A stretch of DNA of 64,000 bases from Bifidobacterium breve (lineage in GTDB: Bacteria; Actinomycetota; Actinomycetes; Nanopelagicales; Nanopelagicaceae). The position numbers were made by a program, and so were the translations under genes. Location: positions 62,001-126,000 of the forward strand of contig CAMCVO010000001.1 of assembly GCA_945881945.1 (NCBI GenBank), given 5' to 3'. The notes beneath the pieces are model-generated. The model saw nothing but the letters and a program-made list of their open reading frames with translations, did not search any database and was not told the origin of the DNA. Below, piece by piece: positions 5,800-58,583 of this stretch (its first letter is position 1; each line of letters begins with the position of its first letter).

Positions 5800-5906
5800 C
5801 TGAAGATTCGCCCCTGTAGCCCAATGGCAGAGGCATGCGACTTAAAATCGCACAAGTGTGGGTTCGACCCCCACCGGGGGCACGCTCAATAGCTGCGAAT
5901 CTTCAG
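5800..5906 (+). repeat. Perfect 11-bp inverted repeat flanking the tRNA
   Basis: CTGAAGATTCG at 5800-5810 is exactly complementary to CGAATCTTCAG at 5896-5906. In the precursor RNA the 5' leader could pair with the 3' trailer and clamp the tRNA. The repeat overlaps only the first tRNA base. It may guide processing or stabilise the transcript. Confidence 0.7.
5810..5882 (+). tRNA. tRNA with UAA anticodon (Leu by decoding), short variable loop
   Basis: A complete 73-nt cloverleaf. The acceptor stem is GCCCCTG with CGGGGGC (one U-G pair). The D arm carries the GG pair. The anticodon stem is TGCGA/TCGCA with 7-nt loop CTTAAAA, giving anticodon UAA. The variable loop is only 5 nt (CAAGT), and the T arm is GTGGG-TTCGACC-CCCAC. 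The discriminator is A and no CCA is encoded. UAA reads the leucine codon UUA, but leucine tRNAs normally have a long variable arm. The decoding assignment follows the anticodon; the amino acid actually attached is uncertain. Confidence 0.85.
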
Positions 5907-5944: not shown

Positions 5945-5971
5945 GGGAATTAGAAAAGATTAATATTTGTT
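5945..5971 (+). promoter_or_regulatory. Sigma-R/sigma-H type promoter of the BI-1 family gene
   Basis: GGGAAT (5945-5950), 18 bp, then GTT (5969-5971). This is an exact match to the GGAAT-N18-GTT consensus known for sigma-R of Streptomyces. It points at the gene starting at 6030 and leaves a leader of about 50 nt that contains a good ribosome site. Confidence 0.65.
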
Positions 5972-6029
5972 CACTACCTAAGTAACTAAATTAGTTCTAC
6001 CCAAAAGTTACTTCTATAGAAGGAGAAGA

Positions 6030-6800
6030 ATGAGAAGCTCAAACCCTGTACTTGGCAAGGCATTTAATCAACCTACAAATATGCAGGTTGATCAACTAGA
6101 GCAAAGTTATAACGCTCCAGCTGCCTCATCAATACGAACAGGTCGCATGACAATTGAAGATGTTGTTGCGAAAACTGGATTTTTATTTGCGATATTAGTT
6201 GTTGTTGGTGCGTTTGCTTGGAATGCAAATCTTGGCATGGGCGCAATACTCATTGGCTTCCTAGGTGGTTTTGCCCTAGCCATGGTAATTAGTTTTAGTA
6301 AGAACATTAAGCCAGGGTTAGTTGTTACATATGCTGCCCTAGAGGGGTTGGCCCTTGGAACACTAAGCAGCTACTACGAAACAGTCTCTCCTGGAATTGT
6401 TAGCCAAGCAGTAATTGGCACAATCGCAGCATTTGCTGGAGTACTAGTTATGTATCGCAACGGCACACTTCGTGCCACACCACAATTTACCCGTGCATTA
6501 ATTGGTGCAGCAATTGGCTACTTCCTATTGGCATTGGTTTCACTTGTGGCGTCATTCTTTGGAGTCGGTGAAGGTTATGGTTTCTACGGTGTCTCAGGGC
6601 TTGGCTTACTACTTGCAGTAGCTGGTGTAGCAATTGCAAGCCTTTTCTTAGTTCTAGATTTTGATCAAATTCAAAAAGGTGTTACAGCTGGTGTTCCAGA
6701 GAAGGAATCTTGGCGAGCATCCTTTGGTTTGATGGTTACTGTGGTCTGGCTATACCTAGAGATCTTGCGACTAATCTCAATTCTTCGCGGCGACCGCTAA
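6030..6800 (+). CDS. Bax inhibitor-1/YccA family membrane protein
   Basis: Integral membrane protein of 256 residues with a soluble N-terminal stretch of about 50 residues (MRSSNPVLGKAF is typical of the actinobacterial members) and about seven membrane segments. The family includes calcium-leak channels and YccA, which modulates FtsH; the actinobacterial function is not known. The late acidic segment VLDFDQIQKGV matches the family's conserved aspartates. AAGGAG lies 6-7 nt before ATG. The upstream sigma-R type promoter suggests induction by thiol oxidation. A strong terminator follows the stop codon. Confidence 0.88.
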   Translation: MRSSNPVLGKAFNQPTNMQVDQLEQSYNAPAASSIRTGRMTIEDVVAKTGFLFAILVVVGAFAWNANLGMGAILIGFLGGFALAMVISFSKNIKPGLVVTYAALEGLALGTLSSYYETVSPGIVSQAVIGTIAAFAGVLVMYRNGTLRATPQFTRALIGAAIGYFLLALVSLVASFFGVGEGYGFYGVSGLGLLLAVAGVAIASLFLVLDFDQIQKGVTAGVPEKESWRASFGLMVTVVWLYLEILRLISILRGDR

Positions 6801-45767: not shown

Positions 45768-45794
45768 GGGAATAAACCTTTGGTTAGAAGGGTT
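45768..45794 (+). promoter_or_regulatory. Sigma-R/sigma-H type autoregulatory promoter of sigR
   Basis: GGGAAT (45768-45773), 18 bp, GTT (45792-45794). An exact match to GGAAT-N18-GTT. The start codon is only 8 nt downstream of GTT, so the mRNA would be nearly leaderless. Autoregulation is the rule for sigma-R family factors. Confidence 0.78.
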
Positions 45795-45802
45795 TTACCT
45801 CT

Positions 45803-46513
45803 ATGCATGCATTACGTCCATCAACTGGGCAAACTAAAAATTATCTAGTTATTGATAAGACCCCCTTCGAGGTAGCCTTGTCCCAAATGAACAACGAAGA
45901 TTTACTGCCGGCGATTATTGATCGAAGCAAAGAGAGTTTAGAACAGCGCAAATCTAGATTCGAAAGAGATGCCCTGGTATTTACATCTCAGCTATATGGC
46001 GCCGCACTTCGTTATACAAAAAATACACATGATGCTCAAGATTTAGTGCAAGACACTTATGCAAAGGCGTTTACAAGTTTTCACCAATTTGAACCTGGCA
46101 CAAATCTCAAAGCATGGTTGTACAGAATTCTCACCACTACATTTATAAATAATTATCGTAAAGATCAGCGCAGGCCTCAGATTTCAGCAGGTGAAATAGA
46201 GGACTGGCAAATAGCAGATGCCTCATCCCATACAAGTGATCAAGGCAAATCTGCAGAGGATGAAGTTTTAGAAAATATTGCTGACAAGGATGTTAAAGAG
46301 GCCTTAGCTGCTATGCCAGAGGATTTTCGAATGGCAGTTTACCTCTCTGATATGGAAGGTTTTTCCTACAAAGAGGTAGCTGAGATAACAGGAGTACCAA
46401 CCGGCACAGTTATGTCCAGGCTACATCGAGGAAGAAAGCTACTGCGGACATCACTTTCTGCTTACGCAACTGAGCGCGGCTTTGGTAATAAAAAAGAAGG
46501 TGGCAAAAAATGA
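45803..46513 (+). CDS. sigR: ECF sigma factor, SigR/SigH family
   Basis: Group IV sigma factor for disulfide stress, 236 residues. Region 2 (about 50-115) has [35 protein letters not shown] and [19 protein letters not shown]. Region 4 (about 165-220) has [41 protein letters not shown]. The linker is acidic. The first 28 residues precede a second possible start (Met29). Streptomyces SigR has a longer, unstable isoform made from an upstream start, so this region is worth noting. The anti-sigma gene overlaps by 4 nt. Confidence 0.93.
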
Positions 46514-46911
46514 GTTTTTCAAATAATGATTTCATGCCATGTGAGCAAGTTCTACCAAACATAGTTTTATACATTGATCATGAGATATTTGATGATCAAC
46601 AACTTAACGCTGTCGAGCTGCACTTTGGTACATGCACAGATTGCCGAGATCAAATGGAACAAGAGAGCGCTGCGCTACTTTTGATGAAAAGCCTTTTATG
46701 TAATGCCCTAAATGAAGAACTACCAGAGAGTTTATGTGATCGCATAAATCAGCAAACTGAGGATTTATACATTCAAATGAAGCAAGGCTCCCAATCAAGT
46801 GGTATTACTGAAATTACCTATACCCAAACCACTTATACGGAGATTACCTCTGATGGTGCAACTCAAATTGAAATAACTAGCGAAATACGCAGGGAGTTCC
46901 CGCAAGAGTAA
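46510..46911 (+). CDS. rsrA: Zinc-containing anti-sigma factor, RsrA type
   Basis: Redox-sensing anti-sigma factor of 133 residues. The ZAS motif H-x3-C-x2-C is at His38, Cys42, Cys45 ([10 protein letters not shown]), and Cys11 matches the redox-active residue of Streptomyces RsrA (C11, H37, C41, C44). Further cysteines at 64 and 76 may also take part. Oxidation of these should expel zinc and free SigR. The last about 35 residues are an unusual Thr/Ile-rich tail ([18 protein letters not shown]). It is coupled to sigR through ATGA. Confidence 0.9.
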
Positions 46912-57470: not shown

Positions 57471-58520
57471 TTAACTCTCCTGCAAAGTCGTTGGTGTTCC
57501 ATGAACTCCCTTAAGGTCACCGCTTAATTTATAACCAATTCCACCTCTACTAACTGGTCTCTTAGCTTTACTCCAGTCAGGTGGAACTATTCCAAGGACG
57601 CCTTTTTGGAAATCATCAAATGCTTTCAAAACTTCAGTTTTTGTATTCATAACAAATGGGCCCATCCAAGCAACTGGTTCTTTGATCGGTAGCCCACCCA
57701 GAATCAATACATCTAAAGTTGGCGCACGAGACTCTTGAGTTAAATCTGCTGCAATCACTATCTCATCACCATCACGATAGGTAACAAGCTGTCCAGTTTT
57801 AATTGAATGTTTCTCATCTCCTACAGTGCCAAAACCATTTAGAACATAAGCCAGTGCGTTGTATGCAGGATTCCAAGGCAATCTCAACTCTGAGCCAGGT
57901 TGTAATGTTGCATGCACCAAAGTGATTGGTGTTTGGGTTGCACCCGGTCCGCTATGACCTGCAACCTCTCCAGCAATAACTCTAAGGAGGGCACCGCCAT
58001 CTGCTGAGGAAAGCAGTGCTACATCTGAAGCTCTTAAATCTTGATAGGCAGGTGGTGACCACTTTTTTGCAGCTGGCAGATTCACCCAAAGCTGAAAACC
58101 ATGAAACAAACCACCACTGACAACTAAATGTTCTGGTGGAGTTTCGATATGCAAAATTCCTGCACCAGCTGTCATCCACTGAGTATCACCATCAGAGATT
58201 GTTCCGCCGCCACCATGATTGTCGTAATGATCAAAGATGCCATCAATTATGTAGGTAACTGTTTCAAATCCACGATGTGGGTGCCAAGGAGTTCCCTTTG
58301 GTTCACCAGGTGCGTACTCAACCTCACCCATTTGATCTAAGTGAATAAATGGATCTAAATCTGCTAAGTCAACTCCAGCAAATGCTCTTCTTACCGGAAA
58401 ACCTTCACCCTCATGGCCTTGCGGTGCGGTGGTAATACTTTTTACTCGACGCGCACGAGCAGCTGGCTTAGCTACAACTCTTGGCAGGACGGTTATATCT
58501 TTAACGGTAACAGCTGGCAA
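57471..58520 (-). CDS. Pirin family bicupin protein
   Basis: Pirin-like metal-binding bicupin of 349 residues. The N-terminal cupin has the metal ligands in TPWHPHRGFETVTYIIDG (two His), HYDNHGGGGTI and MTAGAGILHIETP. The C-terminal cupin (about 175-300) is the usual regulatory half. Family members are quercetin dioxygenases or redox sensors; activity here is unknown. The TTG start has AGGAG 5 nt upstream. A perfect sigma-R type promoter stands 37 nt before it, suggesting induction by thiol oxidation. Confidence 0.9.
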   Translation of the reverse strand: MPAVTVKDITVLPRVVAKPAARARRVKSITTAPQGHEGEGFPVRRAFAGVDLADLDPFIHLDQMGEVEYAPGEPKGTPWHPHRGFETVTYIIDGIFDHYDNHGGGGTISDGDTQWMTAGAGILHIETPPEHLVVSGGLFHGFQLWVNLPAAKKWSPPAYQDLRASDVALLSSADGGALLRVIAGEVAGHSGPGATQTPITLVHATLQPGSELRLPWNPAYNALAYVLNGFGTVGDEKHSIKTGQLVTYRDGDEIVIAADLTQESRAPTLDVLILGGLPIKEPVAWMGPFVMNTKTEVLKAFDDFQKGVLGIVPPDWSKAKRPVSRGGIGYKLSGDLKGVHGTPTTLQES

Positions 58521-58557: not shown

Positions 58558-58583
58558 AACTAAATAATAGCGGGAATTATTCC
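58558..58583 (-). promoter_or_regulatory. Sigma-R/sigma-H type promoter of the pirin gene
   Basis: Minus strand: GGAAT (58579-58583), 18 bp, GTT (58558-58560). An exact match to GGAAT-N18-GTT, directly after the pntB stop codon and pointing at the pirin gene. Confidence 0.68.

Follow-up and report, generated by a model that had tools for sequence, protein, structure and literature searches.

A conserved SigR-type promoter motif precedes the BI-1 family gene of Planktophila-type actinobacteria

The window, i.e. the whole stretch of 64,000 nucleotides analyzed here, comes from a freshwater actinobacterium of the acI type and encodes a BI-1 family membrane protein whose gene, very probably, is turned on by SigR, the thiol-stress sigma factor. 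With good confidence, the BI-1 gene of this Planktophila-type genome can be assigned to a SigR regulon of small size together with sigR-rsrA, trxB, dnaK, and a pirin gene. The first-pass annotation had placed BI-1 in this regulon, and the assignment is supported because sigR-rsrA is present in the genome, the motif recurs at the canonical targets trxB, dnaK, and sigR itself, and the site is conserved in 20 of 20 same-genus orthologues.

The site, GGGAAT-N18-GTT, is located between tRNA-Leu and the BI-1 start codon at positions 5945-5971 (+) and is directed toward the gene. The exact, correctly oriented GGAAT-N18-GTT that the first-pass annotation had reported in the 147-bp spacer before BI-1 was confirmed at 5946-5971 (+), where the sequence reads GGAATTAGAAAAGATTAATATTTGTT; the G at 5945 extends the core to GGGAAT-N18-GTT. 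The -35 element GGGAAT (5945-5950, +) is an exact match, and its GGAAT is invariant in 20/20 same-genus loci. The -10 element GTT (5969-5971, +) follows at the exact N18 spacing and is likewise invariant (20/20). The end of GTT is separated by 58 bp from the BI-1 ATG at 6030, which is preceded by a Shine-Dalgarno sequence AAGGAG (6020-6025, +) lying in the conserved AAGGAGAA. Core, spacing, intergenic place, orientation, and conservation of the BI-1 site are those of a SigR/SigH (ECF) promoter on sequence, the published SigR consensus being GGAAT-N18-19-GTT (PMC9205884). Immediately upstream of the spacer, ARAGORN identified tRNA-Leu(taa) at 5810-5883 (+). This tRNA has only 74 nt and a short variable loop, whereas typical leucine tRNAs are long-armed; in several further genera, a similar tRNA likewise lies 5' of BI-1 (L033, L035, L037, and L038, all of this family).

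Support for the BI-1 site rests on conservation, and counts alone are insufficient. GGAAT-N18-GTT occurs four times in the window, at 5946(+), 6704(+), 45769(+), and 58583-58558(-), compared with 2.33 expected, in agreement with the earlier estimate of about two random matches per 64 kb; four or more matches were obtained in 22 of 100 shuffles. The match at 6704-6729 (+) falls inside the BI-1 coding sequence and was rejected as a chance occurrence. The other three are indeed intergenic and correctly oriented, before BI-1, sigR, and the pirin gene, as had been claimed, but as statistical proof they are weak by themselves given the figures for the window and for the whole genome (1.1 Mb, low GC), in which 45 matches stand against 52 for the reversed pattern. 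The stricter GGGAAT form has two matches in the window, those of BI-1 and sigR, versus ~0.5 expected, with ~0.0005 expected per single 147-bp spacer on the correct strand, and a longer K-GGAAT form was near background in four genomes. No excess of the motif over chance level was detected by counting in the window, the genome, or three complete relatives. Motif count was dropped as evidence, since the frequency equals the chance level.

Loss of the site from close relatives, which had been named as grounds for refutation, was not the case. All 20 same-genus BI-1 orthologues (Planktophila/acI type) with a readable upstream region keep the site in the same place. When the ends of the spacer, i.e. 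the tRNA flank and the ribosome-binding site, are set aside, the tRNA-to-start region of these 20 genomes is diverged and has hardly any long invariant block besides GGAAT and TTAATATTTGTT. The latter block (5960-5971, +) is invariant in 11 of 12 columns and conserved to at least 90% in the remaining one, while the 9 bp between GGAAT and TTAATATTTGTT vary freely. The BI-1 site also occurs in SCGC single-cell genomes and in records under the names Candidatus Planktophila and Nanopelagicaceae. Several genera elsewhere in the family (G032, G033, G031, G035, and others) lack it. In a sister group (L248, L252, L254, L255, L256, L258, and L030 of G026), GGGAAG replaces GGGAAT as the -35 element at the same promoter position, and a TAGAAT/TAATAT-like sequence is located just 5' of TTGTT.

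The window also encodes the presumed regulator. The sigR gene at 45803-46513 (+) encodes an ECF sigma factor scoring 282 bits against TIGR02947 (SigH_actino), above the cut-off of 251.55, and is followed by a gene for an RsrA-like zinc anti-sigma factor (46510-46911, +), which scores 31.6 bits against TIGR03988 (antisig_RsrA), below the cut-off of 62.5. C11, HxxxCxxC, and a Cys on the C-terminal side are kept in relatives of the RsrA-like protein. An exact GGGAAT-N18-GTT at 45768-45794 (+), consistent with autoregulation, precedes sigR and is kept in every same-genus locus for which the true sigR start was reached; the spacer there varies freely. No more than 8 nt separate its GTT from the ATG, so that the sigR mRNA probably has little or no leader. 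The SigR protein of the window carries an N-terminal extension of ~43 aa.

Regions around GGGAAT-N18-GTT matches were read in four same-genus genomes. The matches that were common to the genomes and preceded a gene start were those of sigR, BI-1, trxB (108 bp upstream, in the terminal part of the ORF ahead of it), and dnaK (~131 bp upstream); the other GGGAAT matches were mostly within ORFs, were not common to the genomes, and were discarded. The pirin-family gene (57471-58520, -; PF02678 E=4e-29, PF05726 E=1e-25) is preceded by GGAAT-N18-GTT at 58558-58583 (-), with an orthologous GGGAAT site in another genome (G014, L087). The genes trxB and sigR itself are classic SigR targets (PMC9205884, PMC4921905), and dnaK is a SigH target in mycobacteria (PMC4803200) and a SigH/SigE target in Corynebacterium (PMC10012870). 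At dnaK (L073, L078, L081, and L089), the SigR-type site is followed by CTTGAG...CTCAAG repeats resembling an HspR (HAIR) operator, which suggests combined control of dnaK by SigR and HspR. A second ECF-type sigma factor of ~320-465 aa, in which the sigma domain is joined to a transmembrane helix and an extracytoplasmic portion (G000:C12:16400-16600; L268, L269, and L270), is encoded in 4/4 Planktophila-type genomes checked. The idea of SigR as the sole ECF factor was accordingly dropped.

BI-1 upstream regions were then compared across the class. A start codon was identifiable for 127 of them, and 200 bp upstream were scanned; twelve loci of family f20 and three others are omitted from this number for want of a start motif. 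The f-handles denote families of the class, and names such as mycobacteria-like are tentative, drawn from genome size or synteny. GGAA(T/C)-N17-19-GTT was found in 79/127 upstream regions and 13/27 families, versus a dinucleotide-shuffle mean of 2.4. Near this spacing, all 14 GGAAT pairs are at N18, and the GGAAC pairs divide between N18 (52) and N19 (14). Among the 127 regions, no pair was spaced by 15-17 or 20-22, the reversed pattern was not seen, and the antisense orientation occurred once. On both strands of 30 class loci, 13 of 16 matches fell in BI-1 upstream regions. The site is present in f17 (18/18), f4 (17/18), f9 (5/5), f28 (4/4), f13 (3/3), f26 (9/12), f19 (10/17), and f35 (2/6), and was not found in the upstream regions of f20 (0/8) and f32 (0/4). 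BI-1 appears to be an ECF stress gene of wide occurrence in actinobacteria, which is new here.

The sites differ in the bases by which sigma factors are told apart. According to PMC10012870, GGAAT marks SigH-only and GGAAC SigH/SigE promoters in Corynebacterium. In M. tuberculosis, a purine as sixth base directs a promoter to SigH and a pyrimidine to SigE (PMC4803200). In f4, f17, and f28, 39/39 BI-1 sites are GGAAC plus pyrimidine with C before GTT, whereas GGAAC plus purine predominates in f9, f18, and f26. Most f19 sites (7/10) and all of the Planktophila genus are GGAAT. By the published base rules, the BI-1 promoters of f4, f17, and f28 look SigE-type, and those of several other families look SigR/SigH-type. 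Across Actinobacteria, BI-1 would thus often be under an ECF stress promoter, of the SigR/SigH type in some families and of the SigE type in others. The proposal of SigR control is supported for the Planktophila genus; control in the class appears broader, being SigE-type in mycobacteria-like and Pseudonocardia-like families.

The order echA8(-) echA9(-) BI-1(+) is kept in most f4 loci examined, and the f4 echA8 neighbor matches structures named echA8. This order is presumably that of Rv1070c-Rv1071c-Rv1072 in M. tuberculosis, and by synteny we take the mycobacterial BI-1 gene to be Rv1072. PMC10100808 cites rv1072-rv1073 as direct SigE targets, which provides independent experimental support for a BI-1 gene in an ECF stress regulon. 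The paper on the M. tuberculosis SigH regulon does not mention rv1072 in its main text, which agrees with SigE rather than SigH control there. Nothing relevant on BI-1 and SigR in Streptomyces or Corynebacterium was retrieved from the literature texts searched, and a BI-1 gene may stand as an "integral membrane protein" SigR target in earlier supplementary regulon lists.

It is possible, at somewhat below even likelihood, that two promoters overlap before BI-1 of Planktophila, with a sigma-A -10 element TAATAT (5961-5966) giving basal and SigR giving stress-induced transcription. In the BI-1 spacer, TTAATATT is near-invariant in 20/20, a constraint that the freely varying sigR spacer lacks. 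A TANNNT lies 0-2 nt before GTT in 20/20 sites of the genus, in 3/5 other sites of the family, and in 6/10 f19 sites, but adjoins GTT in no f4, f17, or f26 site, and the GGGAAG genus retains TAGAAT/TAATAT at this place. However, no recognizable -35 TTGACA is found at the right distance from TAATAT, which could also merely be a favorable melting sequence for SigR. In the Streptomyces-like family f19 (L101, L154, L156, and L158), the BI-1 site often reads GGAATCAC-N-TAGCGTGTT, with TAGCGT abutting GTT, suggesting an overlapping housekeeping -10 element there.

It is unlikely that an ECF factor other than SigR, e.g. the membrane-fused ECF-type sigma, is the main one to recognize the BI-1 site. 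Such a factor was found in all four genomes checked, and the base after GGAAT is a pyrimidine in 20/20 BI-1 sites of the genus and A in the sigR and dnaK sites; moreover, mycobacterial BI-1 sites are SigE-like. Nevertheless, the core motif is shared with sigR, trxB, and dnaK, classic SigR targets, and GGGAAT-N18-GTT is the known SigR/SigH signature. Chance-level frequency in window and genome and absence from some relatives are what would be seen if the match were fortuitous and BI-1 constitutive and unrelated to SigR. This reading is very improbable in view of the 20/20 conservation on a diverged background and the class-wide enrichment at the exact ECF spacing.

The BI-1 gene (6030-6800, +) encodes 256 aa with matches to BaxI_1 (PF12811, E=3e-73) and PF01027 (E=1.6e-13). 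A sequence search of the PDB with the protein gave no match. Its predicted structure (pLDDT 81) has the multi-helix BI-1/YetJ fold, and a fold search of the PDB returned B. subtilis YetJ as best match (E=1.9e-5, probability 1.00, TM-score up to 0.84 by target length), the sole solved structure matched at E < 0.001. An acidic pair, D210 and E244, is invariant in BI-1 and, lying at matching motifs, may correspond to YetJ D171/D195. The window protein contains no cysteine and thus cannot be a thiol enzyme in its own right. FtsH is bound and inhibited by YccA, and TMBIM5, a mitochondrial relative, serves both as an inhibitor of the m-AAA protease and as a Ca2+/H+ exchanger (PMC9379554); YetJ is described as a Ca2+ homeostasis protein and YccA as an FtsH substrate (PMC7876416). 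Most likely, BI-1 would serve in membrane quality control or ion balance, in the manner of YccA (FtsH modulator) or YetJ (pH-gated Ca2+ leak), and we infer a role in thiol or envelope stress.

Under SigR control, thiol-oxidizing stress would cause the zinc anti-sigma factor RsrA, presumed to be redox-controlled, to release SigR. The freed SigR would bring RNA polymerase to GGGAAT-N18-GTT at 5945-5971, and BI-1 would be transcribed along with sigR-rsrA, trxB, dnaK, and the pirin gene. The protein would then be made when proteins and membranes suffer damage. In the most economical model, stress sigma factors would raise BI-1, by which membrane proteolysis or ion balance would be adjusted. More tentatively, BI-1 might be a core actinobacterial stress gene whose control has passed between SigE (envelope) and SigR/SigH (thiol), the gene staying in the stress response and its product coupling both kinds of stress to proteolysis at the membrane or to ion leakage, with a housekeeping -10 overlapping the ECF -10 in the Planktophila and Streptomyces-like lineages. 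Bacterial BI-1 proteins are widespread and have rarely been assigned a stress or a regulator. SigR/SigH/SigE promoters give actinobacterial BI-1 a context that is testable in tractable laboratory species by exposure to diamide or envelope stress. A link is also made between the BI-1 family and Rv1072, an uncharacterized SigE target of mycobacteria, and the motif sites provide a first outline of the SigR regulon in the abundant freshwater acI actinobacteria.

Among characterized BI-1 family members, B. subtilis YetJ and E. coli YccA are the points of comparison: the predicted fold of the window protein resembles YetJ, and its invariant acidic pair D210/E244 may have a counterpart there. Unlike them, the window protein belongs to the actinobacterial PF12811 branch, has a long N-terminal tail, and is known here from sequence and predicted fold. 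The regulatory pair is like SigR/RsrA of S. coelicolor, which PMC9205884 and PMC4921905 describe as an autoregulated ECF sigma factor and zinc anti-sigma factor with GGAAT-N18-19-GTT promoters and trxB as target. The ~43-aa extension recalls SigR', the longer, unstable S. coelicolor isoform made from the autoregulated promoter. The Planktophila-type genome is far smaller, and its regulon is probably small; the S. coelicolor main texts searched do not name BI-1 among the SigR targets. In the M. tuberculosis SigE regulon, rv1072 (BI-1 by synteny) is cited as directly SigE-regulated (PMC10100808), and the f4 sites are GGAAC(C/T)-N18/19-CGTT. The surface-stress -35 element there is GGAACY, compared with GGGAAT in the window, and Rv1072 is not discussed as BI-1 in the texts searched. 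In C. glutamicum, the SigH and SigH/SigE regulons include four putative membrane proteins among the targets (PMC10012870), and the GGAAT/GGAAC split between SigH and SigH/SigE promoters described there is mirrored among the BI-1 promoters analyzed here.
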